From Argopecten irradians (taxonomy: Eukaryota > Mollusca > Bivalvia > Pectinida > Pectinidae): a DNA stretch of 64,000 nucleotides. The position numbers were made by a program, and so were the translations under genes. Below the pieces are notes generated by a model. The model did not search any database. It was not told the DNA's origin and saw nothing but the letters and a program-made list of their open reading frames with translations. The stretch covers positions 17,671,255 to 17,735,254 of the forward strand of contig NC_091138.1 of the NCBI RefSeq assembly GCF_041381155.1, read 5' to 3'. Below are positions 6,546 to 64,000 of this stretch, in pieces (positions within the stretch are counted from its first letter, which is position 1; every line of letters starts with the position of its first letter).

Positions 6546-7781
6546 GACCTACCGCAACATCCACTAAACATCCGCTATTTCAATCCTGACAATCACAATC
6601 ATACACATCTATTCCAATTGTTATAAGGAAAATACTGTTCTCTGTATTCTTTTTGTTTTGTATAAAGGTGCACATCTTCACCTCTATAAACGTTTAAGTT
6701 TTAATTAATCGCTGACAAAATAAGTTATCATAACTGCAGTTTTTTAAACAACATGTCATTGATATGATAATAAAGTTATAAGCAATATCATCTATAATAA
6801 GATCCTGATGAAAAACTCGACTGTTTCGTTAATACTAATGTGCTTCAGTACAGAAAAGTAGTTATTTGACGTCCTCAGCGAGATGCATACATGAGGACCA
6901 TATCCACTGCAGTTTTTATATGTTATGAAAAATCAATGTGGTGCTGTGATTGTAATGATATCAAGTCTGGTCCGGAACTATATTAGCTTGTGATAGACTG
7001 ATTGATAGAACGTTCTTGAAAATCACGCATCACAACATGACGAAACTGAAAGTTGGAGAGATATGAGCGTTACACTTACCATCAAAGGTTATCGAAGCAT
7101 AACAATGACAGCTTTAACATAATCATGATATTCATTCATAACTGACTTCTTCCTACAAGCCTGTCCATGTATGTAATTGCGACATTCTCAGTCCGTCTGT
7201 TTTGACTGTGGTTTCTTGTATTATTTTGATTGATCACTGTTAACGAAACGCTTTAAATGTTAGAGGTTTGTAACTCTGCGATTAAGGTTCCGAATGATGT
7301 CGATTCGCAAAGCTCATGGCCTGAAATTCCCGCCCAAAATTTCCAATAGGCCTACTGTGATACAAATGATTTGATTTTACTAAGTTACGATGGATTAGTT
7401 TATTTTCTGCTTACTTTTTGATATTGTTACCTGTAATCACACGTGTTTATAAACTCGACAGTTGTACTATCTTTATGTTCTATATGTTACATGTCATCTC
7501 TCACTATAGGCCTGAGCTTACATATGTGTAGTAGACTAATACTGTATCATAAATTACAGTAGAACTAAACCTACACATAAAAAAACATAAAAGAGGAATC
7601 CATCATACTCGATACTCCTAGGGGGGGGGGGGGACCCGGCGTAAAAAAATAAGGAATTGGATAAAGAGTGAGAATTAGACAGATAGCTCCATTTTCTACC
7701 TTTACCGTTTGATGTTTTTATTTTAAAATCTAAAAGTATTCGACTTCGTGGTACATACATGCATGAACATACCGTACTTAA

Positions 7782-34000: not shown

Positions 34001-37000
34001 CTTTTCAATTTCCCTTGAGTGGTCACTTAAGACAGATTCCACTGTATTTGTTGTTTAATTTCTGGTTTCTTTTATGGGAATTACATCTAATCATTTGAAT
34101 TAGATGTTGTATTTGCTGTGTTACATTTATTTCTGTTTCAGCAACTCATGGCCAAGAGACGGAGCCAACACAGCACTGGGCGTATGTTGATGTACGTGAC
34201 AAGGCACACATGTTTTATTGGCTGTATGAATCCTCTAAAACAGGCGAGGATGTCCCACTTATCATGTGGCTACAGGTAAACACTAATGTAGTACTTATAT
34301 TGAATCCTCTATAAGGGTGAGGATGTCCCACTTATCATGTGGCTACAGGTAAACACTAATGTATTTATATTGAATCCTTGTCCCACTTATCATGTGGCTA
34401 CAGGTAAACACTAATGTAGTACTTATATTGAATCCTGTATAACAGGTGAGGATGTCCCACTTATCATGTGGCTACAGGTAAACACTTATGTATTTATATT
34501 GAATCCTTGTCCCACTTATCATGTGGCTACAGGTAAACACTAATGTAGTACTTATATTGAATCCTCTATAACAGGTGAGGATGTCCCACTTATCATGTGG
34601 CTACAGGTAAACACTAATGTATTTATATTGAATCCTCTATAACAGGCGAGGATGTCCCACTTATCATGTGGCTACAGGTAAACACTAATGTATTTATATT
34701 GAATCCTCTATAACAAGTGAGGATGTCCCACTTATCATGTGGCTACAGGTAAACACTAATGTATTTATATTGAATCCTGTATAAGGGTGAGGATGTCCCA
34801 CTTATCATGTGGCTACAGGTAAACACTAATGTAGTACTTATATTGAATCCTCTATAACAGGCGAGGATGTCCCACTTATCATGTGGCTACAGGTAAACAC
34901 TAATGTATTTATATTGAATCCTGTATAACAGGCGAGGATGTCCCACTTATCATGTGGCTACAGGTAAACACTAATGTATTTATATTGAATACTCTATAAC
35001 AAGTGAGGATGTCCCACTTATCATGTGGCTACAGGTAAACACTAATGTATTTATATTGAATCCTCTATAACAGGCGAGGATGTCCCACTTATCATGTGGC
35101 TACAGGTAAACACTAATGTATTTATATTGAATCCTCTATAACAAGTGAGGATGTCCCACTTATCATGTGGCTACAGGTAAACACTAATGTATTTATATTG
35201 AATCCTCTATAACAGGTGAGGATGTCCCACTTATCATGTGGCTACAGGTAAACACTAATGTAGTACTTATATTGAATCCTCTATAACAGGTGAGGATGTC
35301 CCACTTATCATGTGGCTACAGGTAAACACTAATGTATTTATATTGAATCCTCTATAACAGGCGAGGATGTCCCACTTATCATGTGGCTACAGGTAAACAC
35401 TAATGTATTTATATTGAATCCTCTATAACAGGTGAGGATGTCCCACTTATCATGTGGCTACAGGTAAACACTAATGTATTTATATTGAATCCTCTATAAC
35501 AAGTGAGGATGTCCCACTTATCATGTGGCTACAGGTAAACACTAATGTATTTATATTGAATCCTCTATAACAGGCGAGGATGTCCCACTTATCATGTGGC
35601 TACAGGTAAACACTAATGTATTTATATTGAATCCTCTATAACAGGCGAGGATGTCCCACTTATCATGTGGCTACAGGTAAACACTAATGTATTTATATTG
35701 AATCCTCTATAACAGGTGAGGATGTCCCACTTATCATGTGGCTACAGGTAAACACTAATGTATTTATATTGAATCCTGTATAACAGGTGAGGATGTCCCA
35801 CTTATCATGTGGCTACAGGTAAACACTAATGTATTTATATTGAATCCTGTATAACAGGTGAGGATGTCCCACTTATCATGTGGCTACAGGTAAACACTAA
35901 TGTATTTATATTGAATCCTCTATAACAGGTGAGGATGTCCCACTTATCATGTGGCTACAGGTAAACACTAATGTATTTATATTGAATCCTCTATAACAGG
36001 TGAGGATGTCCCACTTATCATGTGGCTACAGGTAAACACTAATGTAGTACTTATATTGAATCCTGTATAACAGGTGAGGATGTCCCACTTATCATGTGGC
36101 TACAGGTAAACACTAATGTATTTATATTGAATCCTCTATAACAGGTGAGGATGTCCCACTTATCATGTGGCTACAGGTAAACACTAATGTATTTATATTG
36201 AATCCTGTATAACAGGTGAGGATGTCCCACTTATCATGTGGCTACAGGTAAACACTAATGTAGTACTTATATTGAATCCTGTATAACAGGTGAGGATGTC
36301 CCACTTATCATGTGGCTACAGGTAAACACATGTATTTATATTGAATCCTGTATAACAGGTGAGGATGTCCCACTTATCATGTGGCTACAGGTAAACACTA
36401 ATGTATTTATATTGAATCCTGTATAACAGGTGAGGATGTCCCACTTATCATGTGGCTACAGGTAAACACTAATGTATTTATATTGAATCCTCTATAACAA
36501 GTGAGGATGTCCCACTTATCATGTGGCTACAGGTAAACACTAATGTATTTATATTGAATCCTGTATAACAGGTGAGGATGTCCCACTTATCATGTGGCTA
36601 CAGGTAAACACTAATGTATTTATATTGAATCCTCTATAACAGGTGAGGATGTCCCACTTATCATGTGGCTACAGGTAAACACTAATGTATTTTATATTGA
36701 ATCCTCTCTATAACAGGTGAGGATGTCCCACTTATCATGTGGCTACAGGTAAACACTAATGTATTTATATTGAATCCTCTATAACAGGTGAGGATGTCCC
36801 ACTTATCATGTGGCTACAGGTAAACACTAATGTATTTATATTGAATCCTTGTCCCACTTATCATGTGGCTACAGGTAAACACTAATGTAGTACTTATATT
36901 GAATCCTGTATAACAGGTGAGGATGTCCCACTTATCATGTGGCTACAGGTAAACACTAATGTATTTATATTGAATCCTCTATAAGGGTGAGGATGTCCCA

Positions 37001-40000
37001 CTTATCATGTGGCTACAGGTAAACACTAATGTAGTACTTATATTGAATCCTGTATAACAGGTGAGGATGTCCCACTTATCATGTGGCTACAGGTAGACAC
37101 TAATGTATTTATATTGAATCCTCTATAACAGGCGAGGATGTCCCACTTATCATGTGGCTACAGGTAAACACTAATGTATTAATATTGAATCCTCTATAAG
37201 GGTGAGGATGTCCCACTTATCATGTGGCTACAGGTAAACACTAATGTATTTATATTGAATCCTCTATAACAGGCGAGGATGTCCCACTTATCATGTGGCT
37301 ACAGGTAAACACTAATGTATTTATATTGAATCCTCTATAACAGGTGAGGATGTCCCACTTATCATGTGGCTACAGGTAAACACTAATGTAGTACTTATAT
37401 TGAATCCTCTATAACAGGCGAGGATGTCCCACTTATCATGTGGCTACAGGTAAACACTAATGTATTTATATTGAATCCTGTATAACAGGTGAGGATGTCC
37501 CACTTATCATGTGGCTACAGGTAAACACTAATGTATTTATATTGAATCCTCTATAACAGGTGAGGATGTCCCACTTATCATGTGGCTACAGGTAAACACT
37601 AATGTAGTACTTATATTGAATCCTCTATAACAGGTGAGGATGTCCCACTTATCATGTGACTACAGGTAAACACTAATGTATTTATATTGAATCCTCTATA
37701 ACAGGTGAGGATGTCCCACTTATCATGTGGCTACAGGTAAACACTAATGTATTTATATTGAATCCTGTATAACAGGTGAGGATGTCCCACTTATCATGTG
37801 GCTACAGGTAAACACTAATGTAGTACTTATATTGAATCCTGTATAACAGGTGAGGATGTCCCACTTATCATGTGGCTACAGGTAAACACTAATGTATTTA
37901 TATTGAATCCTCTATAACAGGCGAGGATGTCCCACTTATCATGTGGCTACAGGTAAACACTAATGTATTTATATTGAATCCTCTATAACAGGTGAGGATG
38001 TCCCACTTATCATGTGGCTACAGGTAAACACTAATGTATTTATATTGAATCCTCTATAACAGGCGAGGATGTCCCACTTATCATGTGGCTACAGGTAAAC
38101 ACTAATGTATTTATATTGAATCCTCTATAACAGGCGAGGATGTCCCACTTATCATGTGGCTACAGGTAAACACTAATGTATTTATATTGAATCCTCTATA
38201 AGGGTGAGGATGTCCCACTTATCATGTGGCTACAGGTAAACACTAATGTATTTATATTGAATCCTCTATAACAGGCGAGGATGTCCCACTTATCATGTGG
38301 CTACAGGTAAACACTAATGTATTTATATTGAATCTTGTATAACAGGTGAGGATGTCCCACTTATCATGTGGCTCCAGGTAAACACTAATGTATTTATATT
38401 GAATCCTCTATAACAGGTGAGGATGTCCCACTTATCATGTGGCTACAGGTAAACACTAATGTAGTACTTATATTGAATCCTCTATAACAGGTGAGGATGT
38501 CCCACTTATCATGTGGCTACAGGTAAACACTAATGTATTTATATTGAATCCTCTATAACAGGTGAGGATGTCCCACTTATCATGTGGCTACAGGTAAACA
38601 CTAATGTATTTATATTGAATCCTCTATAACAGGCGAGGATGTCCCACTTATCATGTGGCTACAGGTAAACACTAATGTATTTATATTGAATCCTCTATAA
38701 CAGGTGAGGATGTCCCACTTATCATGTGGCTACAGGTAAACACTAATGTAGTACTTATATTGAATCCTCTATAACAGGCGAGGATGTCCCACTTATCATG
38801 TGGCTACAGGTAAACACTAATGTATTTATATTGAATCCTCTATAACAGGCGAGGATGTCCCACTTATCATGTGGCTACAGGTAAACACTAATGTCTCTAA
38901 GTACTTATATTGCTGTATGACAAATTATACTACATCAGAATCCAACAGATTATTCTGAACTATAACTACAACTTTGATCGGGCGTTAGACATGTGGTAGT
39001 TATGTTCAGTGTCAATATATAGTCAAAATGCATGGAGAGTCAAAATACCTGTCATTATAGACAGGTGGTCATTATATACAGACAGTCGTTAGAGCAGGTT
39101 TGACTGTATTTTGAATGAAATTTGATTTTCAACCTTGTTTATCATAAATCAGTACTGAGTTATCAGTCTTCAATGTCTTCTCCTGAGCCCTAGACTGGCC
39201 ACTAGACCCTAGGTAAACTTCATAACTGGATTATCTACCCTGAGTTTGAAACTAGAATCTGTTATATCAAGAGACAAAAATAATCAAGCAATATTTTTGT
39301 GATAATTCTAATATTTTAGAGACTCCTGAGACCTAAACTGGCCCCTAGACACAAAGTTGCTGATAAGAATATTTCAGCTGGATTTTATTATTGGATTATC
39401 TCCCCTAGTTTGAAACTAGAATCGGACATATCAAGAGACAAAAATAATCAAGCAACATTTTGGTGATAATTCTAATATTTTAGATACTCCTGAGATCTAG
39501 ACTGGTCACTAGACCCAAAGATGTTGACTAGAATATTTCAGCTAAATTTTGTTACTGGATCATCTCCCCTAGTTTGAAATTAGAATTGAACAGATCAAGA
39601 GACAAAAATAATCAAGCAACATTTTGATGATAATTCCAAACATTATCCTAGAGACTGATGTCCAGTCTGCCTGAGCCCTAACATGAGACAGATAGTGTTT
39701 TAAGAACAAGTAAATAATTGACTATTAATTTTTTTAAGGGTGGCCCTGGAGGATCCTCCACTGGCTTTGGTAACTTTGAAGAGATCGGACCATTGGATGT
39801 TGATTTGAACTCACGTGGCACAACATGGGTATGTCCGATCATCTATGTGATAGATAAAGGAACTACAGAGTTTTGATAATGATTTATATGAAGCTTTGTG
39901 AATGTTCCCCCTCAAGTCATACATGCACTGATACATGCCAGTAGTCTGCATTAAATATTGTGAATTAGTCCATTCATTGATGTGTCTTTAGATGGCTGCC

Positions 40001-43000: not shown

Positions 43001-46000
43001 ACTGTATAGTTGCTAATTATGGCAAGCCAATTTAACATTTATTGAAGGAGCAAGGTCTATCCCGTATTTAATCGAATTATATAAGATATCTTATATAATA
43101 ATATAAGATATCTTATATCTATATAAGATATCTTATAAAGTATATAACATATAAGATATCTCATATAGGATATAAGATATCCCATATAGGATATAAGATA
43201 TTTCATATATTATATAAGATATCTTATATCATTATGTATAAAAAATAAATAAGATATTCATATAGTATTTATGATATCTTATTTAATTTTCTATATAAGA
43301 TATCTTATATCATATATAAGATATCTTAATTAATATATAAGATATCTTATATTATTGAAATCTCGTTGCTATATAAGATATATTATATAGAATGAGATTT
43401 CGTAGCATTTAAAACCAGAAACTAATTTCTCCCTCGAGCATCATTCGGAGCACATTTTAGAATCGTTTGCAATGACAGAGATGGTACTGAAAGGGAGAAT
43501 CAACCGCTGTTTGGTTGCATTCAACGATGTATTGAAAACACTGAAGCAGTTAATTCCCATCACTCTAGTTGTCAATTCGAACATGGCGACAATAAATATA
43601 TTGGCTATAATGGTGACCTATCTATACATGCATACTTTTGTCTAGTTCAACCAAACACTTGATACTGGCGTGGCATGCGAAGCCAACAAGAGTCTGGCTG
43701 AACGAGTAACTGTACAGCTCTCTATGACTTCCGGGTAGGGAGACTTCATTTCTGGGCTTTTGTTGAAATCTCGTTCCTTTATAAGATATCTAATAAAGCA
43801 AGGAGATTTCAATTATATAAGATATCTTATATATTATATAAGATATCTTATATAGATAACTTAAATGAGATATCTTATATACGATATAAGATATCTTATA
43901 TAGGATTAATTAAAAAACATATGAGATATCTCATATATTATATAAGATATTTTATATTTCAATCAAGATATCTTATATATTTGCTGTGAAATAAGGATCT
44001 ACTTTGGGATCTACTTTGCTCTTTGAATAAATGTCATGTTGGCTTGCCATAGCTAATACTCACAGATTCATCCCAATTTGTGAAAATCAATATCTTCAGA
44101 AATACATCGAAATCATGATTTTACATATCAGAGTTTGTAAAATGAATGATTATTTAAAAGACTATATTATAATTCGCAAAATTAAACCCCTGCAAAAAAA
44201 GTTCCAAACAGTAAATCGAGAAATCTTACACCCGCAAAACTTTTATTATTTAAACAATTATACAGTATATCAAGAATTTGACAGTTCTCTTAAATTTTCC
44301 GTAGTCTTAAAGGGACATGAACCTAAATAAACTATGTAAATTTGAGTAAAACTTATATTTAAGACATGTCAGTTACTTTACTAAGTAATATATATCAGTT
44401 ATTGTGCAAATATGTCAAATAAAATAATTATTGTAATGGAAATTCCATCTTTCTGTATTTTAAATCGGCCCGGTTGAATTTTGTAGACTAAGTGAGATAA
44501 AAATAGTAGTGTTGAACTTTAGTGACCTCCATCAATGCACTGCACAAATTAAATGAATGTAAACAAAATGGTGGGTCAAAAACGTGGGTGAAAGGAACAC
44601 AAACGAATTCCGATTGAAAACAGATTATGACAAGAGTCAGTAACATGCACGATTGAGAAAGTAGGTAAATATAAATGGATTGCTGAAATGCAAGAGATGG
44701 GAGCAACTTCCCACATGTACATATTTGCAATAAGTCAAGAACCCCGCTTGGCGGTGCCCCGTCATAGGATAAGTCTCATTTGAATTTTGACTTATCATTC
44801 TTACGCAAATTACAAATTGTTTTATAACAAATATTAACAAATATGGCTTATTCTTCATATATCAACCATCGTAAATTAGAGAATAATCTTAAAACGTGTA
44901 AAAGTAATTTTCCTTGTCTTGTCAGCAAGTTTGTTGTTCATTATAACCTCGCTTTCGACCAGCTTTCGTTTTGTGTTCCAAAAATAGAATATGATGGTGT
45001 ATTTTTATCATTTTTGGGGTAGGTATTCCCCACATTTTCCTGTTGTTTTAGATTACCAATCATTGTACTAAAATATTCAATAAACATATGAAAATCATAT
45101 CTAAGCATACAGAACAACTTATTTAAGGTTCATGTCCCTTTAAGGGACCTTTATAAATTTTGTTTGATATAAATCTTAACTACTCTGACCAGTGGTAGCC
45201 ATTCTTCCTCATTAACACATGTCTTTGTAGTTTTGTAATCTAAATCAATCCGATTTCTTACAGATAAGCCAGAAATTCGAATATTGAGAGTTTTCCATGC
45301 AGACAAATTGACCACCTTGATGAATGGCCAAATCAGAGAAAAGTTGAAGATAATTCCACCTCATGTCAACTGGGGAGGTAATTAAATCATCCACAATGTT
45401 TTCAATCAATCATCTTGTTGATTACCAGAGATTATTAACTAAAAGAAATTAATATCTCCTGCGAGTCAAGACACTGAAGTCAGGCAATATAAAATTTTGT
45501 GTTAATTATTTCTATCTATTCAGTGAAATCTGCCTTATCCACCTTTGTACCATGTCTGATATAAAGCCCACCTGCTTATTAAAATTTTCTTAGGTTCACA
45601 AATGGTCATTTATAACACAATTTGACCTGTATATAAAGACCACTTGGCTATAGAGACCCATTCTCCCTCATGTGGTCTTTATAGACAGGTTTGACTGCAT
45701 GTCATTAATGGTAATTCATTGAGAATATGTTTTCTATTTTAGAACCAGTTTTGGAAAAAAAAAAAAAACCAAGAAATTTCTAGTCTAGGATGTGGCATGG
45801 CTTATTTATTAGTTGTACTGTATTGATGTACTGGTGATCAGTAATAAGTAAAAACATTTGTTATAAATTATAATTATAGGTCAGAGTGGAGAGGTGTTTC
45901 AGCACATGAAGGGAGATTTTATGAAACCTATTGTTAAGACAGGTATGTTAAACGGATAGATTAGTGTGTCTTATAGTGTAGTTCTACACTCTGAATGTCA

Positions 46001-47540
46001 CACACCTACACACATTGACTATATTGTATATTTTTATGGATCATTAAAAGGAATATTTCTTAAACGGGATAAACAAACTGAAATAGTTGTTGATTGATGG
46101 TGTATAAATTGATCTAGTAGCAGCTGCTAATATTCAAATATACCATTTTATAAAAATGATTTGTCATAGAATTCCTGCTTTTACTGTAATCACTGTGAAA
46201 CAACAATATTGCACTATAATTTTCCGTTGGCTTTCCAGTTAATAGATTGATTAACGAGACCAATCTACAGGTGGTTGTTTATACAGGCCAACTGGACCTC
46301 ATCTGCTGTACCCCAGGTAAGGCTTACAAAAGATCTTAGAAGTTCATCATAACATTAGAAATAACAGATCACCAGCTGTCAATTAAACCTCTGGGATACT
46401 GCACATAACTTTACAGTTTGTATTGTGTATTCTATGACGTTTGCTGCAACATTTAATGGAAACATGTGCGTATCCCAGCGCAATGTGTGGCTTCAAACTG
46501 CCTGGCGATCAGTCATGCAGTTGTCTCTTGAAAAATGACCTCTGATATTCAGATATATTGAATCCTAGTATTCAGTTGAACCTACTTACTAATATAATTT
46601 GAACTCTGCTTGATTTGAAATGAAATTGAATCTCTTCCATGAAAATTTGGAAATATTAAATTATATTTATGGGGACTTTCAATATTATTACCAGATACAA
46701 ATTAATTGCTATATGTTGTTATATTATGTCTGGTGTACAAAATGTGAATGTAACTGTTCAGGTACAGAGAAATGGGTGGAGACTCTGGACATTTATCCCC
46801 AGTTCTACAATACATCCAGAGAAAGTATACCAGACCCTGTGACTGGCCTCACGTCAGGGTTTGTGAAAACTTACAAAAACTTTGCAATGTACTGGATTCT
46901 AGATGCTGGACACATGGTAAGTATTATGTTATAATGTCTATTATGTGTAAATATACAGGCATGCCGCTGATAATGTAACATTGTATAGAGGAAATGAAAA
47001 CTGATAAATCTTTCATTACCATCTGATATTTCTGTTTTTGCTATCTGTTATCTGCCCTTGTGGGTAGGTATTGAGTGTGACGTCATCTGTTTGTGAGCGT
47101 AATGTCATACTTTTAGGAGAAAATGATGTGAATTTTGCTCTCAAAATAATGCCATCACTTTGGATACCTATGTGGGAGGTAACTTTTTAAGATGGAATAT
47201 TCATGACAAATTGCATGTAATTCTTAAAAAAGTTAGACAGATTGTGAAAATTTCTTAATATTGTTTCAATACCTTCATGAATGAGTTTAGAAAAGAAGAT
47301 CAATGTCCCACACTTTATTGCTATACACTCAGATTGATAAAAGTGATTTATAACTCTAACTTTTTACTCTTGCTACAGGCACCAAAGGACAATGGAAATA
47401 CTGTGCTTGACATGGTCAAGAGAGTGACAACGAGTCATGAGCGCAGATCCTACAGGAGGCTCTATAACTTTGCAGCTTGGATACTTAAGTGGTCAAGAAA
47501 CTTACATCATAAAAAGTTAATTATCTTCAATAACTATTAG
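31063..47540 (+). CDS. SCPEP1: Serine carboxypeptidase SCPEP1 (retinoid-inducible serine carboxypeptidase)
   Basis: Twelve exons with matching phases: 31063-31129, 34142-34275, 39739-39828, 40099-40263, 41623-41697, 42040-42150, 42764-42968, 45264-45377, 45880-45942, 46239-46316, 46762-46916 and 47379-47540; 472 residues against about 452 in vertebrates. Exon 1 encodes a hydrophobic signal peptide (LFETLSIWLICTCIALP). Family signatures follow in order: WLQ-GGPGGSSTGFGNFEEIGPLD (split by intron 2), FVDNPVGTGYSYV, the nucleophile Ser in ESYGG, GDSWISP and SWGPYL, the Asp in GQLDLI, and the His in AGHM. The triad is complete, so this should be a secreted or lysosomal S10 serine peptidase that trims C-terminal residues. 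The C-terminus runs about 30 residues past the usual end and is basic. Intron 2 carries a large array copied from exon 2. Confidence 0.95.
31290..33100. repeat. Degenerate AAGGTCA-rich repeat in SCPEP1 intron 1
   Basis: Loosely periodic text built on CCTCTGAAGGTCACAGGAAG. AGGTCA occurs at about 31681, 31720, 31793, 31900, 31999, 32037, 32488, 32573, 32855 and 33002, with many TGGTCA variants; two more lie near 33721 and 33768. An old minisatellite is the simplest view. Confidence 0.65.
33389..33627 (-). mobile_element. Truncated TTAA MITE joined to a SINE tail
   Basis: 33389-33553 is a reversed, truncated member of the AGATGCTCCACCGC family. Directly after it, CCTGGCACGTCCTTACATAA ... TTAATAGGACGTTAAAC-like text (33554-33627) matches the 3' end of the SINE at 41059, in plus orientation. 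Confidence 0.65.
33958..34050 (+). repeat. Dispersed repeat family, fragment
   Basis: Partial copy of the 16722/27653/45527 family (TATTAAGAGACCGCTTTTC ... CAGATTCCACTGTA), 90 bp before SCPEP1 exon 2. Confidence 0.5.
34227..38894 (+). repeat. 71-bp minisatellite derived from SCPEP1 exon 2 and its splice donor, about 65 copies
   Basis: The first unit is the last 49 bases of coding exon 2 (TGAATCCTCTAAAACAGG..., 34227-34275) plus the first bases of intron 2. It then repeats to 38894 as 71-bp units, with 74-bp variants (TAGTACTTATA) and a few short units lacking the CTATAACAGGTGAGGAT part. Every full unit keeps CTACAG|GTAAAC, the natural donor. Most also carry ACAG|GTGAGG, where the true exon has ACAGGCGAGG. 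Units are nearly identical, implying recent amplification or homogenisation. Confidence 0.97.
39160..39670. repeat. 164-bp tandem repeat, about 3 copies
   Basis: GAGACAAAAATAATCAAGCA recurs at 39271, 39435 and 39599 within units that include CTCCCCTAGTTTGAAA. Still within SCPEP1 intron 2. Confidence 0.8.
40458..40966. mobile_element. TTAA-associated TIR element, AGGGACAATTCA type
   Basis: AGGGACAATTCAGTCTAAG on the left and CTGAGTGAATTGTCCCT on the right bound 509 bp; the left flank is TTAA and the right is TCAA, a one-base-diverged target site. No ORF. Confidence 0.75.
41059..41279 (+). mobile_element. Intact tRNA-derived SINE
   Basis: Pol III A-box region TGGCTGAGTGGTTAAG and B-box GGGTTCAAATCC (41129-41140) are followed by a body with CCTGGCACGTCC and TTAATAGGACGTTAAAC and a short A-rich tail. 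ACAGTCAGAC is repeated exactly before (41049-41058) and after (41280-41289), a 10-bp target duplication. The head resembles a class II tRNA (Leu/Ser-like). An ORF across it is incidental. Confidence 0.92.
41369..41554. mobile_element. TIR element (CAGTAAAACA family), long copy
   Basis: ACAGTAAAACATG at the left pairs with CATGCTTTACTGT at the right; interior AACCTGTTTACAA / TTCTTTATAA also pairs. Relative at 17140-17225. Confidence 0.6.
43070..43410. repeat. ATAAGATATCTTAT palindrome array, left block
   Basis: Repeated self-complementary 14-mer ATAAGATATCTTAT separated by AT-rich linkers, in SCPEP1 intron 7. Confidence 0.85.
43780..43985. repeat. ATAAGATATCTTAT palindrome array, right block
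   Basis: Same motif as the block at 43070-43410. The 370 bp between the blocks is non-repetitive and bordered on both sides by GAAATCTCGTT. Confidence 0.85.
44311..45139. mobile_element. 829-bp TTAA element, AGGGACATGAACC type
   Basis: TIRs AGGGACATGAACCTAAATAA and its inverse (TTATTTAAGGTTCATGTCCC, then T) are each flanked by TTAA (44307-44310 and 45140-45143). No transposase is recognisable; short ORFs inside are not convincing. Non-autonomous piggyBac/Kolobok-type element (inference). Confidence 0.85.
45527..45706 (+). repeat. Dispersed repeat family, copy 3
   Basis: Same order as 16722-16886: CTGCTTATTAAAATTTTC ... CCTGTATATAAAGACCACTT ... TTTATAGACAGGTTTGACTG. Confidence 0.7.
47047..47184. 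mobile_element. GTTATCTGCCC MITE in SCPEP1 intron 11
   Basis: Ends GTTATCTGCCC and GGGAGGTAAC; uninterrupted relative of 17578-17884 and 52050-52189. Confidence 0.65.
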
Positions 47541-47689
47541 TTTGGCTACAAAAATATTGTTTTATCAGCATGCTGATCTAATGTACTTCCTTAGGTGATT
47601 TGCACATTTCAATGTTCCAATTTCCATTCACTGAATGTCTATGTTACTATTTTCCCAAGCATGTCAAATGATTGCCTAAAGTTATATGT

Positions 47690-50600
47690 ATTTCCTCAAT
47701 ACTCCCAGAATGGTCACATGATCACCCAATGTCACTATTCTCCAAGGTGTGCCATATGGTCACCTAATGATGTCATTTCCTCAATACTCGCAGAATGGTC
47801 ACATGATCTCCCAATGTCACTCTAACCCGAGGTGTGCCATATGGTCACCTAATGATGTCATTCCCTCAATACTCCCAGAATGGTCACATGATCGCCCAAT
47901 GTCACTCTTACCCGAGGTGTGCCATATGATCAACTAATGATGTCATTCCCTCAATACTCCCAGAATATTCACATGATCGCCCAATGTCACTATTCTCCAA
48001 GGTGTGCCATATGATCAACTAATGATGTCATTCCCTCAATACTCCCAGAATAGTCACATGATCGCCCAATGTCATTATTCTACAAGGTGTGCCATATGAT
48101 CAACTAATGATGTCATTCCCTCAATACTCCCAGAATAGTCACATGATCGCCCAATGTCACTATTCTCCAAGGTGTGCCATATGATCAACTAATGATGTCA
48201 TTCCCACAATACTCACAGATTGGCCACATGATTGCCCAATGTCACTATTCTCCAAGTTGTGTCATATGATCAACTAATGATGTCATTCCCTCAATACTCC
48301 CAGAATAGTCACATGATCGCCCAATGTCATTATTCTACAAGGTGTGCCATATGATCAACTAATGATGTCATTCCCTCAATACTCCCAGAACGATCACATG
48401 ATCTCCCAATGTCACCATTCTCCAAGGTGTGCCATATGATTAACTAATGATGTCATTCCCTCAATACTCCCAGAATGGTCACATGATCGCCCAATGTCAC
48501 TATTCTCCAAGGTGTGCCATATGATCAACTAGTTATGTCATTCCCTCAGTACTCCAAGAATGGTCACATGATCGCCCAATGTCACTATTCTCCAAGGTGT
48601 GCCATATGATCAACTAATGATGTCATTCCCTCAATACTCCCAGAATGGTCACATGATCGCCCAATGTCACTATTCTCCAAGGTGTGCCATATGATTAACT
48701 AATGATGTCATTCCCTCAATACTCCCAGAATGGTCACATGATCGCCCAATGTCACTATTCTCCAAGGTGTGCCATATGATCAACTAATGATGTCATTCCC
48801 TCAATACTCCCAGAATGGTCACATGATCGCCCAATGTCACTATTCTCCAAGGTGTGCCATATGATCAACTAATGATGTCATTCCCTCAATACTCCCAGAA
48901 TGGTCACATGATCGCCCAATGTCACTATTCTCCAAGGTGTGCCATATGATCAACTAATGATGTCATTCCCACAATACTCACAGATTGGCCACATGATCGC
49001 CCAATGTCACTATTCTCCAAGGTGTGCCATATGATCAACTAATGATGTCATTCCCTCAACACTCCCAGAATGGTCACATGATCGCCCAATGTCACTATTC
49101 TCCAAGGTGTGCCATATGATCAACTAATGATGTCATTCCCTCAATACTCCCAGAATATTCACATGATCGCCCAATGTCACTATTCTCCAAGGTGTGCCAT
49201 ATGATCAACTAATGATGTCATTCCCACAATACTCGCAGAATGGTCACATGATCGCCCAATGTCACTATTCTCCAAGGTGTGCCATATGGTCACCTAATGA
49301 TGTCATTCCCTCAATACTCCCAGAATGGTCACATGATCGCCCAATGTCACTCTTACCCGAGGTGTGCCATATGATCAACTAATGATGTCATTCCCTCAAT
49401 ACTCCCAGAATATTCACATGATCGCCCAATGTCACTATTCTCCAAGGTGTGCCATATGATCAACTAATGATGTCATTCCCACAATACTCACAGATTGGCC
49501 ACATGATTGCCCAATGTCACTATTCTCCAAGGTGTGCCATATGATCAACTAATGATGTCATTCCCTCAATACTCCCAGAATAGTCACATGATCGCCCAAT
49601 GTCACTATTCTACAAGGTGTGCCATATGATTAACTAATGATGTCATTCCCTCAATACTCCCAGAATGGTCACATGATCGCCCAATGTCACTATTCTCCAA
49701 GGTGTGCCATATGATTAACTAATGATGTCATTCCCTCAATACTCCCAGAATGGTCACATGATCGCCCAATGTCACTATTTTCCAAGGTGTGCCATATGAT
49801 CAACTAATGATGTCATTCCCTCAATACTCCCAGAATGGTCACATGATCGCCCAATGTCACTATTCTCCAAGGTGTGCCATATGATCAACTAATGATGTCA
49901 TTCCCTCAGTACTCCAAGAATGGTCACATGATCGCCCAATGTCACTATTCTCCAAGGTGTGCCATATGATCAACTAGTTATGTCATTCCCTCAGTACTCC
50001 AAGAATGGTCACATGATCGCCCAATGTCACTATTCTCCAAGGTGTGCCATATGATCAACTAATGATGTCATTCCCTCAATACTCCCAGAATGGTCACATG
50101 ATCGCCCAATGTCACTATTCTCTAAGGTGTGCCATATGATCAACTAATCATATCATTCCCTCAATACTCCCAGAATGGTCACATGATCGCCCAATGTCAC
50201 TATTCTCCAAGGTGTGCCATATGATCAACTAATGATGTCATTCCCTCAATACTCCCAGAATGGCCACATGATTGCCAAATGTTACTATTCCCCCTGGTGT
50301 GCCATATGATCAACTAATGATGTCATTCCCTCAATACTCCCAGAATGGTCACATGATCGCCCAATGTCACTATTCTCCAAGGTGTGCCATATGATCAACT
50401 AATGATGTCATTCCCTAAATACTCCCAGAATGGTCACATGATCGCCCAATGTCACCATTCTCCAAGGTGTGCCATATGATCAACTAATGATGTCATTCCC
50501 TCAACACTCCCAGAATGGTCACATGATCGCCCAATGTCACTATTCTCCAAGGTGTGTCATATGATCAACTAATGATGTCATTCCCTCAACACTCCCAGAA

Positions 50601-50825
50601 TGGTCACATGATCGCCCAATGTCACTATTCTCCAAGGTGTGTCATATGATCAACTAATGATGTCATTCCCTCAACACTCCCAGAATGGTCACATGATCGC
50701 CCAATGTCACTATTCTCCAAGGTGTGCCATATGATCAACTAATGATTCCCACAATACTCACAGATTGGCCACATAATCGCCCAATGTCACTATTCTCCAA
50801 GGTGTGCCATATGATCACCTAATTA
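47690..50825. repeat. 85-bp minisatellite, about 37 copies
   Basis: Unit starts CCCTCAATACTCCCAGAATG and contains GGTCACATGATCGCCCAATG and AAGGTGTGCCATATGATCAA. It begins about 150 bp after the SCPEP1 stop and may be partly in the 3' UTR. ORFs inside are repeat artefacts. Confidence 0.95.
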
Positions 50826-54412: not shown

Positions 54413-55140
54413 AGTCCTCAACTACAAATGGTGTGTAAACATGTATGTCCTCAACTACAAATGGTGTGTAAACATGTATGTCCTCAACTACAAATGGTGT
54501 GTAAACATGTATGTCCTCAACTACAAATGGTGTGTAAACATGTATGTCCTCAACTACAAATGGTGTGTAAACATGTATGTCCTTGACTACAAATGGTGTG
54601 TAAACATGTATGTCCTCAACTACAAATGGTGTGTAAACATGTATGTCCTCAACTACAAATGGTGTGTAAACATGTATGTCCTCAACTACAAATGGTGTGT
54701 AAACATGTATGTCCTCAACTACAAATGGTGTGTAAACATGTATGTCCTCAACTACAAATGGTGTGTAAACATGCTTGTCCTCAACTACAAATGGTGTGTA
54801 AACATGTATGTCCTCAACTACAAATGGCGTGTAAACATGTATGTCCTCAACTACAAATGGTGTGTAAACATGTATGTCCTCAACTACAAATGGTGTGTAA
54901 ACATGTATGTCGTCAACTACAAATGGTCTGTTAACATGTATGTCCTCAACTACAAATGGTGTGTAAACATGTATGTCCTCAACTACAAATGGTGTGTAAA
55001 CATGTATGACCTCAACTACAAATGGTGTGTAAACATGTATGTCCTCAACTACAAATGGTGTGTAAACATGTATGTCCTCAACTACAAATGGTGTGTAAAC
55101 ATGTATGTCCTCAACTACAAATGGTGTGTAAACATGTATG
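54413..55140. repeat. 33-bp satellite, about 22 copies
   Basis: Unit TGTCCTCAACTACAAATGGT plus GTGTAAACATGTA, nearly invariant. It keeps a 234-codon frame open (11-residue repeat MYVLNYKWCVN) and a second frame of 113 codons; two open frames and no flanking exon argue for a satellite rather than a gene. Confidence 0.93.
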
Positions 55141-55762: not shown

Positions 55763-57068
55763 ACAAGAGATCCCAGAGGGATCTTGGCGCCCACCAAAGA
55801 ATGATCTATATCTGACAAAGGAAAAATGGATCTTTTCTCTACTTTTTAAACTTTTTCAAACATACTACATATAAAATTTGAGACAGATCGCTTCAGTACT
55901 ATCTGAGAAATAGCCATAACAAACTTTAACTATCAAAATCCAAGATGGCGGCCATCTTGTTCACCGATTGGTTCAAAAATGCAATATGCACAACAAGGGC
56001 TCTAGGGGAACCTACATATTAAATTTGAGAAAGATCCCTTCAGCACTTTTTGAGAAATAGGGATATCAAACCTTAACTATCAAAATCCAAGATGGCTGCC
56101 TGGTGGCCATCTTGTTTTTCCGATCAGCCTCAAAATCTGTATGGCACAACTAGGGACCAAGGGTACTCTCCATGTGAAGTTTGAACAAAATCCCTTCAGT
56201 AGTTTTCAAGAAATATCGATAACAAAACTTCAACTGCCAAAATCAAAGATGGCTGCCTGGCGGCCATCTTGTTTTTCCGATCAGCCTCAAAATCTGTATG
56301 GCACCACTAGGGACCAAGGGTTACCTCAATGTGAAGTTTGAACAAAATACCTTCAGTAGTTCTCAAGAAATATCGATAACAAACTTCAACTGCCAAAATC
56401 AAAGATGGCTGCCTGGCGGCCATCTTGTTTTTCCGATCAGCCTCAAAATCTGTATGGCACAACTAGGGACCAAGGGTACTCTCCATGTGAAGTTTGAACA
56501 AAATACCTTCAGTAGTTCTCAAGAAATATCGATAACAAACTTCAACTGCCAAAATCAAAGATGGCTGCCTGGCGGCCATCTTGTTTTTCTGTTCAGCCTC
56601 AAAATCTGTATGGCACAACTAGGGACCAAGGGTACTCTCCGTGTGAAGTTTGAACAAAATCCCTTCAGTAGTTCTCAAGAAATATCGATAACAAACTTCA
56701 ACTGCCAAAAGGCGGCCATCTTGTTTTTCCGATCAGCCTCAAAATCTGTATGGCACAACTAGGGACCAAGGGTAACCTCCATGTGAAGTTTGAACAAAAT
56801 ACCTTCAGTAGTTCTCAAGAAATATCGATAACAAACTTCAACTGCCAAAATCAAAGATGGCTGCCTGGCGGCCATCTTGTTTTTCCGATCAGCCTCAAAA
56901 TCTGTATGGCACAAATATGGACCAAGGGGACCCTTCGTGTGAAGTTTGAACAAAATCCCTGCTGCAGTTTTTAAGAAATAGTGATAACAAGCATTGTTTA
57001 TGGACGGACGACGGACCACGGACGCAGGGCGATTTGAATAGCCCACCATCTGATGATGGTGGGCTAAA
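55763..57068 (+). repeat. Composite dispersed repeat with internal units of about 155 bp
   Basis: Opens with AACAAGAGATCCCAGAGGGA. Six internal units start near 56131, 56288, 56443, 56600, 56740 and 56895; each has CTGTATGGCAC and most keep AAGATGGCTGCCTGGCGGCC. It ends with GACGGACGACGGACCACGGA and the inverted pair AGCCCACCATC/GATGGTGGGCT. ORFs of up to 154 aa follow the internal repeat and are not counted as genes. Transposon class unknown. Confidence 0.8.
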
Positions 57069-57129: not shown

Positions 57130-58404
57130 TTTATACATACTATTTTAAAACATTTCTTGATCTACAATTCATTCAAGATATTGACTTAACTTTTCAATTA
57201 CAATATTGTTAAAATAATTAGTATGCATAAAGTTTACAAGTTGGACAATGGTGATTATTTCACGGGTCTTAATGAACTGTTCAGTGATTTTGAGATATGC
57301 TCTAATTATACAATATCAGCACATTGCTTCACACCTTGGTTTGCTCTCTGACAATTTAATGCTTATATCAATATTGATTTACAAATTTACTTATATAAAA
57401 GTCATATAAAAACCTCCAACAGCACCAGAGATTTTTCTTGTCACTTTTCCTCCAAACGCACTCATTACCTTATGGTAACACAATTTCCAAACCAATCACT
57501 TCTTGATTGAAATAGTCCAGCATAATCGACACTACTTTTTTCGTGAGTCACTTTCATCTTCTATGACAATAAAGCATCACATTTCTTGTACATGTAACTT
57601 TATATGTAAACTCATGTAGGCCTTACCTTCTAAATCTTGACTGGATCAGTGTTCCAATTACTCTACTGGACAAAATTGGCACACCCATCACACTGTGTTG
57701 AGATGAAGTTAAGATACTCAGTAGTGTAGTAGACAGGTAAATGAATAACTTTACTCCAGTTAATTTTTCAGGCTAAGTCATATCTCCCTAAATAACCTTC
57801 CAAGACCATTACCAAACAGAACAGTGAAAGGGTAGAATACATTTTTCCTTTGTAACACAGAAACCAGTACCATCATATGTAGGAGTATGAAAGTTAAAGT
57901 TTATGTTCAGAAGATGGAGATTACTGTATTTTTCGTCTATGTGTTAAAAGTTTAACAATTATATTCAACATTCAACAAATATTGTGAGTTATCACTGCGT
58001 CAATCATGTGCTAGTTTCTATGGTGTACCTACCGGTGAAGAGTTCACCAGTCCAGATAAACACCCTAGAGCCTGTCTGCTTCTTGGCTGTACAGAGAAAA
58101 TAATCACATTGTCATACAGCAATCAACAACGGCAAAGCACTGCAGATCTCTAAAACTTTTCATTCCAATCTTTCTACTATAGCTATGATATTCTTTTAAT
58201 GCTTGAAAAACTAAACTATCAATGCAGAATTACAGCAATCTTGCTACACTGTCTCAGATATGTAAAACTTATCAATTGTATTCAATACTGACCTTATATG
58301 ATACGAGAAATTCCAGTTATATCTAGCACACTCATCTTCAGTATCTGATTACAGAAACCATGCAACAGTGAAATAAAAACCAAAATTGTCAAAAATGAAA
58401 TCTA

Positions 58405-58939
58405 GTCACCAACATTGTTGGGGGCATAAAACCCAACAGCAAGTCAACTTGCTGTGACCATTGATCAACACACAAAAACGTAGCATATAAAAACACTGCA
58501 GTCACCAACATTACGTTGGGGGCCATAGCCCAACAGCTTGACTCGCTGTGACCAGTTTATATATCAATAATCAAATGCTTAGTCACCAACAGACAATGTT
58601 GGGGGTACAAAGACCCAACAGCAATCCTATTTGCTGTGACCACTTGCCTTCAGTCAACTATCTGCAATCTGCACCCTGCACCTAATGACCTCCACGTACC
58701 AATCTCTTTACTGTATGATTTATATATCTTTGACCATGGTAGAGTCACCAACTGAAAGTTGGGGGCAACTAAGCCCAACAACAAGAATACTTGCTGTGAC
58801 AACTTGCCTTGTTCACCATTCAGTCCAAACCAGACCTAGCGTATCAGAACTTTTAACAAAAGATATAAAGAAGAAACATCGCCAACTTAAGTTGGGGGCA
58901 ACACTGCCCAACAGTGAAGGTTTACTCTTTCACTGTGAC
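58405..58939. ncRNA. Five-copy cluster of a cloverleaf-forming structured element (candidate RNA)
   Basis: Units at 58405-58458, 58501-58552, 58582-58640, 58744-58800 and 58878-58939. Each reads: closing strand GTCA, hairpin CCAAC-loop-GTTGG, hairpin GGG(C/T)-loop-(G/A)CCC, AA, a longer hairpin, closing strand TGAC. Pairing is kept by paired changes: GGGC/GCCC becomes GGGT/ACCC in unit 3, and CAGCAAG/CTTGCTG becomes CAGTGAA/TTCACTG in unit 5. Loops vary freely. In all units GTTGGG can instead pair with the downstream CCCAAC, so two folds compete. The complement folds the same way, so the strand is open. It lies 1.0-1.6 kb past the ZNF207 stop and could be in a long 3' UTR or be independent. 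Units 3-5 are followed by ACTTGCC. Confidence 0.6.
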
Positions 58940-59499
58940 ATTGTTCACTTGCCTGCTGGAGTTGGTGGAATCTATAGACTGTTCCGAAAAAGTGCTTTAA
59001 ACTATGTATGAATAGAATACCACTTGCCTTGCTTTCTGGTACACTGAATGAAATCAGCTCAACTAGGCCTTTGACCTTTTAGGCAAAAATAATCTGCATT
59101 ATTTCTTTTCATTACTATTACATGTATTATTGTTATCTATATTATATGGCTGTTCAATACTTTTTGTCTATTTCTTTATTAATTCAGACCAATAAGATTC
59201 AGCTGCTTATACAATTCATAACAAGATATTTTACCGTTCTGGGTATATATTTTAGAGAAAGGCATGTTCAACTGACTTCATCAATGCATTCATGTCCACA
59301 AGTCTCACAGATCCAGTATTACTTTAACAATAACACTCAGTAATATTACTTAACAATGTCCATCAATTAGAATTGTTCAATCACAAACGTAATTATATAT
59401 CCCTAGAAGAATCCTGATTTTGTGACAATAAAGGAAAAAACAAAGAAATAAATAAAAAAAATTTAGTCATTGTTATGTTATATACAATGACATTATATT

Positions 59500-59505
59500 T
59501 TTATT
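59500..59505 (-). terminator. Candidate proximal poly(A) signal for ZNF207
   Basis: AATAAA on the minus strand about 460 bases past the stop at 59964-59966. If this is the main site, the structured cluster is outside the mRNA. Confidence 0.4.
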
Positions 59506-59963: not shown

Positions 59964-62900
59964 TCAGTAGTGGTTTCCTTGCTGCATCTGTGGTCTAAAT
60001 CCTCCCCATTGGTTATCATTCATACCTCCCATACCACCTGATGATCCTCCTGTCCTCATACCTTCAACATATAAATAACTTTACATAATAGCTATCACAT
60101 AATTATAACCTATAGTTCTCTTATTCATTTTGCACTTGATATATTTTCATTTACCACAGTACAATTGTAAATACCAGGTACCATTTCATTACAAATTGCA
60201 TCCGTCAGTGTTACATATTATGTGACATCTTAATATTGTATTTTCAGTTTTAGTTTAAATAGAGCAGACAAGTTGAACTTTTCACTTTAAAAACTTTGTA
60301 TACTGGCTGCCAAATTCAACTTCAATAATTGGTATAATGTTATTGAAAAGTAATCTAAATGTAATTATAATTACACAGTACCTGGTAATTTTTCATTGTA
60401 ATCGATTACGATTACGATAACAAGTATTCGAAAGAGCCTTCGATTACTGATTACTGTCGATAACTTGAGAAAATGTAATTAACTACAATTGATTACAATT
60501 ACACGATTACGATTACCCCATGAATAAATTTATTAAGAATCATTTCAAGCTTACCTGCAACCATTTGTTTGTATTTGGGCAGTGTAGCTCTCCTCTCCTC
60601 CTGTGGTACAAAAAGAAACAGATGAATCGTCATGTGAAGATCTCTGTCAAAGTCATTGAAATTATCAATGGATATCAATTTTAATCAGATTTTAAAAAAA
60701 CAACTGAAACCAAAATTTTTACAGCACCTGTATCAATTATCAGTACAAAAGTGAAAGTATTGTATGATCAACACATCAAATAGCTCCATATCCACTTTCA
60801 ACTTAATAAACACAAAGTTTTTGACATTTTTTCTATGAAACTAGTAATGTCTCACCCTGACTTAAACAAATATTCAACAACATATATTCAGTAATAAGCT
60901 ATCCCCCGTGTAATTATGAATGTTCTGTTCGAATGGTAATTCAATGATCACATCGCTTCCTCTATTATAGTTATAAATGATGTGGTGTCAATGTTGTTTT
61001 ATTGGTTTGTTACAATTCACAGGCAAATTTTAAAGTGTAAAATAACTAACAATAGACTCATACATCACTACTCCTACCTTTCAAAGTTGAATATGCCATC
61101 ACAGGTATTGGACGATGAGAACTTACCAGGGAGATATCCTCATCTGGGTGCATGAGTTTAGAGGTCAAACCTGAGCTAGACTCTGGTTTCTTTATCTGTG
61201 GAGCACCTGTAATGGTTGCCCTCGATGGAGAGGAAGAGGCTGTATTTGAAGCTGCTGCTGCAGGGAATGTTGGCTTGGCTTGACTGCTTATCGTTGATGA
61301 CTTGTATGACTGGGCAGTTGAGGAGTTCGCCACAGATGACTATGATTTTATAGAAGTTACATTTTTATAGTTCTTTTCATACATGAATCATAGTCAGGTT
61401 CATATATACTAACCACTACAAATTCCTTCCAGGTTGGAAAGTATGGGTTATCTATAACCAGTGAATAGAATATTCACTGGTTGTGGAACAATATCATTGT
61501 ATCAATACTTAATCATTGTTTTTGTTGAATCATTATCATACATAAATATTGTTTTACTAAATAGCTTTAATCAATTACAAGTAAGCAGCTAATGTTATAA
61601 TGTTTCTGCCCAAAACGCTATGCAAATACAAATTTCAGAATTCAGTTTTCTTTTCATACTTAAATAGTGATTCATATAGAGAGATTTAACTCACCTGAGC
61701 TGCAGCGGGAAATAAAGGCTTTGATGGAGCTGATGATGACATGGGGGGCTGCATGGGTGGTGGTGGTCCATTACCGGGCATGAAGTTCCTCGGAGGCATT
61801 GGTGGCATCCCCGGGGGCATTCTATAGTAACAATACAATTACATAATAAAAGCCCACTGTAATCACTAAAACCTGTCAGATCTTAATGTGTTTCAAATAT
61901 TCCAGTGTTCTGGAAGAAGTACAATTTACCTGTAACTTGTAACAAACCATCTTTTGCATTACAACTATGCAATTATATTAACTTTGAAATTAGAATCTTT
62001 TAAATTGTCTTCTACATTTGTAGGAGACATTTCAAAGTCATTTTTTTTATTTTGTATTATTTATGAATTGAAACAGGAATAAAATTTAAATCAACTTACC
62101 CCATTGGGCCCATAGGTCCTGAAAAATATCAAATTCTTTATGTAAGAATCTTAAAGATGTTCAACCGCTGACAAAAAGTATTTTTCTCTCTATCAAAAAC
62201 AGGAACCAACAAATTAGTATTTTTCTTCAGTTACAAAAGTTATTTACTTTACACCATTACCACCATTGAAAAGCTTAAGCTTCTCATTTTTCTTCAAGAT
62301 GAAAATGTTAAAAATAATTGATTGCATACCGAAAAAATTCTTGGCTACTATATCCTATATGGAATGGAGTACTGATTGCAAGCAGCAAAAGCAAAATAAA
62401 TTATCTTATATTAATTTTTGTGTGAATTAGACATATGTATACATGATTAAACACCAATGATTGTTCAAATGATGAGTATTGTTTTTCTCTCTCAGCAGTG
62501 GAGCATCTTTAACTGAATTTAACTTTCTACTTTAATAATGATTTTGTACACCCTTATTCAGTTTCACAGAAAACACAAATAGCAAATTATTGCGGTTCTT
62601 GTGGCTTCTTTTCATTTCTTTTTTATCTGTTAACATGTCTCATTACTAGTGCAAATTATACAAGTTTTTACGGTACATACCAATTGATACTATCTCATGC
62701 ATACCAGGTACATATCTAAACATTCTTTTAACAATAACAGAAATAGTTATCTACTCACCCATTGGTGGCATGGGTCCCATAGGCCCCATAGGACCCATTG
62801 GTCCCATAGGGCCCATTGGCCCTGGTGGCATGGGAGGCATACCAGGCGGCATACCAAATGGTGGCATGCCTGGCCCCATTGGGGGAGGCATACCGTAATT

Positions 62901-64000
62901 GTTATACTGATTATTATTTCCCTGATTACTATCATCTTCGTCACCATCATCATCACCTCCATCGTCCTCTCTCATTCTCTTACTGGGAGGTTCTACAGAA
63001 AAAATAAATACACAATGTCTTATCTAAAGCAGCCAAAACAAAGTCAGACCTTACCTGTACAAAACTTATCATCACTCAGTAGAAGGTTAGCACATTTCTT
63101 TATCAGCATCCAATAATGAAATTGTAGGCTGGCTGGAATGTATTCATCACAGTGACAATAACAAACCGTCTAGTTTTTGTATGTATTTTTTTCCACATCC
63201 CTCTCCTTTTTAACAGTTTGATATCATCATTGGCAGTGAATTACATTCAATATCACAAATGTAAACAAGAACACAGTATGTCATATTGTCCAATGTATCT
63301 ATTCTTGCCTTGAGTGTATTTGTTATTTCTTTAAGTCTTATTTTGAATTTTTGAATTAGTTATTCCTGTTTGTTGTATCTATCAGTCATTCTTGTCCAGA
63401 ATCTCTGTGTGTTATTTTCTTTTGTGAATAGCAGAAAATTGTTAGGGAAATTAATATTAGAGAGTTGTTAGTGTAAAAGTTTAGAATTGAAATTTATATT
63501 TCATACCTTGTTTCTGTTTCTCGTGGTCCTTTATGTCTCCATCAGGTATGCCTTCCATACCATATATTTCAATTTCAACATTATTTCTTCCTGGTAAAGC
63601 ATTTGGTATCTTGTCAATTTTGTCTTTATGTACCTAGAAAAAAAGAATATAGACAAAACAATAATCTTGACATTTTATATTTGAAACAGAGTTAAATATT
63701 ACATAAACTGAAGCAATATAAGAAAGGTACGGTTGAATTATAAAAACTTTATAATTGTCCATAAATGGCATTAAATCAAAACTTATATCTCTGTAACTGA
63801 CAGTTCCTCTTGAATATAAAATTTAAATAATTCTTAAATTTATGAAATTATCAATGCATTATCAGTATTTAATAAATTTCAATGTGAATAAGCATTTGCA
63901 CTGTACTGTCCACACACAAATTACTGTAAAAGGAACATTCTAGGTTGGATAAGAACAAATATACTTTGACATACATGTATTGCACACTTACCTGCATACA
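59964..64000 (-). CDS. ZNF207: ZNF207/BuGZ, Bub3-interacting zinc-finger protein (N-terminus off window)
   Basis: Minus-strand exons: 64000-63992 (partial), 63633-63507, 62992-62759, 62118-62100, 61821-61695, 61339-61127, 60600-60555 and 60061-59964, phases consistent. The first visible codons, CMQ|VHK, are the end of the second N-terminal C2H2 finger. Then come PNALPGRNNVEIEIYGMEGI (the conserved block after the fingers), an acidic run, a Met/Gly/Pro-rich segment (PMGPMGPMGP), and SKLMHPDEDISLEERRA, the GLEBS motif that binds Bub3. In vertebrates the protein loads Bub3 on kinetochores, binds microtubules through the low-complexity region and takes part in splicing. The exon at 62118-62100 is only 19 nt. 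The C-terminus is short (…QQGNHY). A TTAA MITE (62155-62508) sits 36 bases 5' of the micro-exon on the transcript. Confidence 0.95.
60310..60520. repeat. GTAATCGATTACGATTACG repeat in the last ZNF207 intron
   Basis: Short dispersed repeat built of TAATCG/CGATTA and AATTGTAATTAA-like words, largely self-complementary. Confidence 0.55.
62155..62508 (+). mobile_element. TTAA-family MITE, copy 4, beside the ZNF207 micro-exon
   Basis: 354 bp, ends AGATGTTCAACCGC and GCAGTGGAGCATCT, flanked by TTAA (62151-62154, 62509-62512). Lies in the intron just upstream, in transcript order, of the 19-nt exon. Confidence 0.85.

Follow-up and report, generated by a model that had tools for sequence, protein, structure and literature searches.

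A tandem array of five cloverleaves downstream of ZNF207

We identified a tandem array of five cloverleaf structures downstream of a ZNF207 gene in the genome of Argopecten irradians. The copies conserve their stems over their loops, carry two-sided stem changes and, in the searches made, occur at a single locus. We interpret the array, tentatively and at something short of probable, as a locally amplified, structure-conserved cis-element of the minus strand linked to ZNF207. A preliminary description of the 64,000-nucleotide stretch of contig NC_091138.1 that was analyzed (hereafter, the window) had proposed a new structured RNA family. Such a family is possible; with one locus in one genome it is not established, and the sequence points to a candidate new structured element that is not yet a family.

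The five units lie where they had been described, and their measured lengths span the 52-62 nt given for them. Units 1 (58405-58458, 54 nt), 2 (58501-58552, 52 nt), 3 (58582-58640, 59 nt), 4 (58744-58800, 57 nt) and 5 (58878-58939, 62 nt) were listed without a strand. All fold into three hairpins around a four-way junction, which on the plus strand reads GTCA (CCAAC-loop-GTTGG) (GGGC-loop-GCCC) AA (CAGCAA-loop-TTGCTG) TGAC. Each copy thus has a closing stem of 3-4 bp, a variable arm of 4-8 bp, a 4-bp arm and an invariant 5-bp arm. Unit 2 has a short third arm (4 bp only in the named structure), unit 3 a compensated GGGT/ACCC pair, unit 4 a third-arm A-C on the plus strand that is G-U on the minus strand, and unit 5 a CAGTGA/TCACTG third arm with an ATCG/TGAC outer stem (alignment A2, which also documents units 1, 2 and 3). 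Among the strands earlier described as invariant, CCAAC/GTTGG and GGG/CCC never vary; GTCA/TGAC does, in unit 5. Energy folding favors a closing stem of 3 bp and a third arm one pair longer at its base. The five-unit alignment has 65 columns with a mean column identity of 75%, and the core GTTGGGGG-N{3,12}-CCCAAC has five matches in the window, where 0.00 are expected and none of 100 shuffles gave as many. An RNA model built from these five units (R1) gives them 69.6, 64.7, 72.2, 75.0 and 62.5 bits, in unit order, scores (62-75 bits) that are high by construction because the same units built the model.

All five units can also form a 6-bp GTTGGG/CCCAAC helix that uses the invariant AA junction. 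Depending on the unit, this alternative falls 0.4 to 8.2 kcal/mol short of the best fold, and a bistable switch through it is a weak prediction of the energy model. Because the helix is weaker than the cloverleaf in that model, it explains the invariance of the AA incompletely. Energy folding pairs one of the two junction A's; the named cloverleaf pairs neither.

Stem conservation and compensatory change

Pairing was tested on the structure that we named following the preliminary description. On the plus strand 90 of the 93 cells are paired (30-45% in slid-partner controls) and on the minus strand 92 of 93 (27-64%). Three pairs carry two-sided changes, a number reached by 10 of 500 column shuffles on the plus strand and 9 of 500 on the minus strand; slid versions of the structure yield 0-1 such pairs on the plus strand and 0-2 on the minus strand (2 at a slide of -3). 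One of these changes is in unit 3, at the final pair of its GGG/CCC arm; the other two are in unit 5, in neighboring pairs of the third arm. They bear out both of the paired differences first described, GGGC/GCCC versus GGGT/ACCC and CAGCAA/TTGCTG versus CAGTGA/TCACTG, with pairing kept in each. Further pair types do not rise above shuffles, as 500 of 500 (plus) and 216 of 500 (minus) reach the observed number. When 10 or 12 random substitutions were simulated in the stems, at least three compensated pairs arose in 0.003-0.02% of trials (200,000 per setting), in a simulation that ignores the relatedness of the copies and takes the number of substitutions from our own count. The single mismatch noted earlier, the A-C in unit 4, is present, and two more occur on the plus strand: a terminal C-A in the GGG/CCC helix of unit 1 and an A-C in the outer stem of unit 5.

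Stems and loops have evolved differently. Invariant columns make up 28 of 38 in the stems versus 2 of 27 in the loops and junction (Fisher p 6e-8; columns counted by hand from the alignment, gapped columns taken as variable, and columns not independent of one another). Pairwise identity reaches 333/372 for the stems and 20/20 for the AA junction; the loops of the three hairpins have 14/38, 22/49 and 16/56. Across the 15 pairs of spacers and flanks, the best alignment (through the octamer CAAGGCAAGT) is matched by 3 of 200 shuffles, the next by 5, 6 and 13 of 200, and the rest by at least 41. The copies look old because the spacers are almost unalignable. Hence the units look like old duplicates whose stems were kept while the rest drifted. 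Of all the evidence, this conservation of stems over loops speaks most strongly for selection on structure, and it comes from the sequence of a single locus. The initial proposal that secondary structure is under selection stands to the extent that some force is well supported within the array; paired changes can also arise by template switching in inverted repeats.

No covariation information comes from the CCAAC/GTTGG helix or the GGG/CCC pairs, which are invariant. Covariation power is small because the copies number five and come from one locus; three covarying pairs are informative, two of them adjacent within unit 5. A proper covariation test needs more sequences (PMC8250186). One further version of the locus came through a chance ORF of 123 aa on the plus strand across units 4 and 5. 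Its sole match, with 99% identity over 74% of the ORF, was P0121, a 91-aa ORF with 2 member sequences and a longest contig of 3,001 bases, so its source would be an allele from the same or a very near species. The 91-aa ORF of this other assembly differs at one residue, which maps to the loop of the first hairpin in unit 4, with the base change deduced from the codon and silent changes invisible to such a comparison.

Strand preference

The two kinds of strand evidence disagree. Four cells are not Watson-Crick: three that are A-C or C-A on the plus strand become G-U on the minus strand, and a G-T of unit 5 on the plus strand becomes an A-C mismatch on the minus strand. The G-U versus A-C counts in the sequence thus favor the minus strand by three cells to one, a preference resting on four cells. 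Furthermore, pair 34-41 on the minus strand occurs as C-G, U-G and U-A, so that the G-U intermediate is present; this series is the usual path by which RNA pairs change. Folding z-scores mostly point to the plus strand. For units 1 to 5 they are -2.9, -2.5, -4.2, -3.1 and -4.6 on the plus strand and -2.7, -1.9, -1.9, -3.4 and -3.0 on the minus strand, stronger on the plus strand in every unit except unit 4. The whole array scores -4.5 on the plus strand versus -2.0 on the minus strand (20 shuffles each). Folded singly, four of the five units on the minus strand and three of the five on the plus strand adopt the full cloverleaf at minimum energy; in the minimum-energy fold of the whole array on the minus strand, not all units are intact cloverleaves.

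Searches for relatives

We searched the species' own genome (845,758,899 bases in 1,508 contigs) with the array as DNA and with sequence patterns rather than with the RNA model, a design that could miss strongly diverged copies. As DNA, the array matched itself and nothing else at E<=0.001. The core pattern gave nine matches, five of which are the units; one of the other four loci scores 11.0 bits with R1 and three are absent at E<=10. A two-hairpin pattern gave 26 matches, five in the units and the other 21 in a single 27-bp minisatellite on C6, one locus of which was scored with R1 (13.1 bits). This minisatellite (47.728-47.737 Mb), with units close to CCAACAAAATAGTGTTGGGGGTCAAAA, appears to be a different repeat. 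The 5′-half pattern matched 17 times, in four units and 13 other places, versus 12 matches for a reversed control pattern; the 6 of these 13 that were listed with R1 score 10.2-20.2 bits. A dispersed transposon is unlikely because none of these searches gave another copy, and the many copies expected of a transposon or MITE were not found in this genome.

Known RNA families were also sought. The statement that the fold matches no nameable family holds for Rfam 15, a search that had been proposed at the outset: no family matches in the window at the gathering cut-off, and a relaxed E-value returned FTX_2 alone (E 3.4, 15.1 bits versus a cut-off of 48). ARAGORN called no genes in the window, which rejects a tRNA, tRNA-like or mascRNA-like gene as far as this program detects them. 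A tRNA cloverleaf has a 7-bp acceptor stem and a T-arm with a conserved loop; the units have outer stems of 3-4 bp and variable loops unlike those of tRNA in length and letters. The tRNA-like order of helices described earlier is therefore a superficial likeness.

The model R1, of the kind first suggested, was run on the window and on prokaryote and viral stretches, and nothing came near the unit scores. The pattern of the first two hairpins occurs in 105 stretches of prokaryote contigs and 9 of viral contigs; all 114 were scored, and the best reached 26.8 and 27.5 bits versus 62-75 for the units, so these were rejected as homologues. Scores near 20 are expected because these stretches already hold the pattern, and in the window itself R1 gives 20.9 bits to a spurious match that spans units 1 and 2 on the minus strand. 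In an Acidobacteria MAG (JACQDB), the pattern CCAAC..GTTGGGGG..CCCAAC occurs on 12 contigs; it is probably the MAG's own dispersed palindromic repeat, and none of the 12 contigs is listed at E<=1 with R1. A chance ORF of 55 aa over the units on the minus strand had no match, and the two chance-ORF probes, which are insensitive, revealed the array in no other species. None of the titles and opening lines of abstracts examined in the open-access literature, for the terms used, describes the element.

Genomic setting

The array is 1.03-1.56 kb downstream of the ZNF207 stop codon on the same (minus) strand. The 3′ exons of this ZNF207/BuGZ orthologue occupy 59964-63633 on the minus strand (stop codon 59964-59966; exon boundaries placed by eye). 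A joined query of 287 aa from the C-terminal part matches 735 proteins, and those named among the best 120 include ZNF207 or ZNF207-like proteins of Octopus, Gigantopelta, Ruditapes, Dreissena, Physella and Biomphalaria. The solved chain 6j0d_A, named only 'transcription factor', matches the query over residues 1-35, and Pfam finds no domain in the 287-aa stretch. The ZNF207 identity thus follows from the protein matches and the 6j0d_A match, not from Pfam. The nearest call-supported exon on the plus strand belongs to a serine carboxypeptidase (ORF 46614-46931, PF00450), more than 11 kb from the array. The two genes converge, since the carboxypeptidase is on the plus strand and ZNF207 on the minus strand.

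Candidate poly(A) signals on the minus strand lie before the array (59505 and 59180) and after it (58200, 57360 and 57129). Use of the candidate proximal signal, an AATAAA at 59500-59505, would leave the array outside a short 3′ UTR; use of the candidate distal signal, an ATTAAA at 58195-58200, would place it inside the 3′ UTR of ZNF207. We also identified an octamer, AGGCAAGT, which presumably resembles a GC-type 5′ splice site. It occurs four times in the whole window with both strands counted, always on the minus strand and at the array: 1 nt 5′ (minus strand) of unit 3 (58642-58649), 1 nt 5′ of unit 4 (58802-58809), 7 nt 5′ of unit 5 (58947-58954) and, without a unit, at 59022-59029. A sixth, decayed unit at this solo octamer was sought with R1 with the filters off, and no match was found. 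The window-wide count is ordinary (7 of 100 shuffles reach 4); what stands out is that all four lie within 390 bp, a clustering noticed post hoc.

Other features of the window include large tandem arrays at 54414-55140 (33-bp units), 47686-50823 (85-bp), 34508-38894 (71-bp), 20575-22397 (44-bp) and 56034-56990 (156-bp). The 33-bp array is open throughout on both strands (ORFs of 247 and 253 aa with an 11-residue repeat). Near-palindromic repeats around ATATAAGATATCTTATAT at 43078-43352 and 43812-43981 could form hairpins. The minus strand also holds RCC1-repeat ORFs of another gene (1941-2297 and 6297-6548), which we take to be HERC-like.

Alternative explanations

Complementary arms could be maintained by mutation rather than by selection. 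A chance multi-hairpin sequence, duplicated locally, would then form a non-functional inverted-repeat array, and template-switch or quasi-palindrome repair at replication would preserve the complementarity of its arms; we consider this explanation somewhat unlikely. One study reports that hairpins with multibase compensatory changes can both arise and persist through template switching (PMC8794818). A single such event would fit the adjacent pair of two-sided changes in unit 5, and the window has many tandem arrays (39 rows, overlapping). However, template switching keeps arms complementary within a copy and leaves unexplained the stem letters shared between copies, where 28 of 38 columns are invariant. 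It also leaves unexplained why these letters are kept while loops and spacers drift, and why the AA junction, outside any stem in the named cloverleaf, is invariant. Template-switch-maintained RNA hairpins would account for clustered two-sided stem changes like those of the array but not for stem letters common to old copies (PMC8794818). That the units are pieces of a palindromic transposon or of a dispersed repeat, the explanation that the preliminary description had set against its own, is highly improbable: terminal GTCAC...GTGAC inverted repeats are present in four of the five units, yet the searches of the genome with the array DNA and the core, two-hairpin and 5′-half patterns gave no further copy.

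The five modules could be cut from, or carried by, an independent non-coding RNA unrelated to ZNF207 and transcribed from the plus strand or from its own minus-strand promoter. The stronger plus-strand folding of four units and of the whole array is consistent with such an RNA, as are the candidate poly(A) signals between the array and ZNF207 and the distance of over 11 kb to the nearest call-supported plus-strand exon, that of the carboxypeptidase. Against it stand the three-to-one preference of the G-U counts for the minus strand and the lack of an Rfam or tRNA match in the window, and we judge it clearly unlikely. The structure can form on both strands and sits between the carboxypeptidase gene (plus) and ZNF207 (minus), as would suit a DNA-level element, either cruciform sites for protein binding or a boundary or replication element between convergent genes. 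The C-G/U-G/U-A series on the minus strand is instead of a kind tolerated by RNA pairing. Furthermore, arms of 4-8 bp are short for stable DNA cruciforms. We judge a DNA-level role very unlikely.

A possible cis-element of ZNF207

As a cis-element linked to ZNF207, the array would most likely be carried in a long 3′ UTR or in a readthrough or downstream transcript of the gene. Five copies on flexible spacers could then offer a multivalent platform to a structure-reading protein, which may influence the stability, localization, translation or 3′-end choice of the ZNF207 transcript. Such a layout, five structured modules with seemingly unimportant spacers, is as expected of a multivalent protein-binding platform in RNA, and ZNF207 is the transcript nearest to the array. 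We infer the transcription of the array, its strand, the protein binding and the effect on ZNF207. The link to ZNF207 is weakened by the candidate poly(A) signal at 59505, which would end the transcript before the array, and an RNA of the minus strand is weakened by folding z-scores that are mostly stronger on the plus strand.

The protein could be ZNF207 itself. ZNF207 is reported to bind RNA (PMC8892232) and, in human cells, to regulate splicing in association with the U1 snRNP (PMC12191140, a preprint). Self-control is a natural guess because of these reported activities, and the AGGCAAGT octamers fit control by ZNF207 of its own transcript. The full form of this reading, in which ZNF207 autoregulates through an undescribed five-fold cloverleaf array and U1-like AGGCAAGT sites that set 3′-end choice or nuclear retention, is a long shot.

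Known systems offer partial parallels. The mascRNA of MALAT1 and the menRNA of NEAT1 are tRNA-like cloverleaves at RNA 3′ ends. Like the units of the array, they are cloverleaves some 60 nt long that lie downstream of a transcription unit; unlike them, the array has five tandem copies, a closing stem of 3-4 bp, variable loops and no tRNA or Rfam match. The logic of the U1A polyadenylation-inhibition element, in which the U1A protein binds the structured 3′ UTR of its own mRNA, is also similar, with repeated structured sites in the 3′ region of the gene of a U1-linked RNA-binding factor. The structures of the two differ, however, and in the array the binding and the effect on polyadenylation would be hypothetical. 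The enteroviral 5′ cloverleaf is likewise a four-way junction, and one that is read by proteins, but it is a single copy at a viral 5′ end; the array has no Rfam match.

If transcribed and conserved, the array would be a structured RNA element without an Rfam entry, in an unusual layout of five tandem copies, adjoining a gene with a product active in both spindle assembly and splicing. As its copies look old and diverged, it would offer a natural case for separating selection on RNA structure from the maintenance of hairpins by template switching. Should the autoregulatory reading be true, the array would represent a new multivalent structured-RNA platform for autoregulation.
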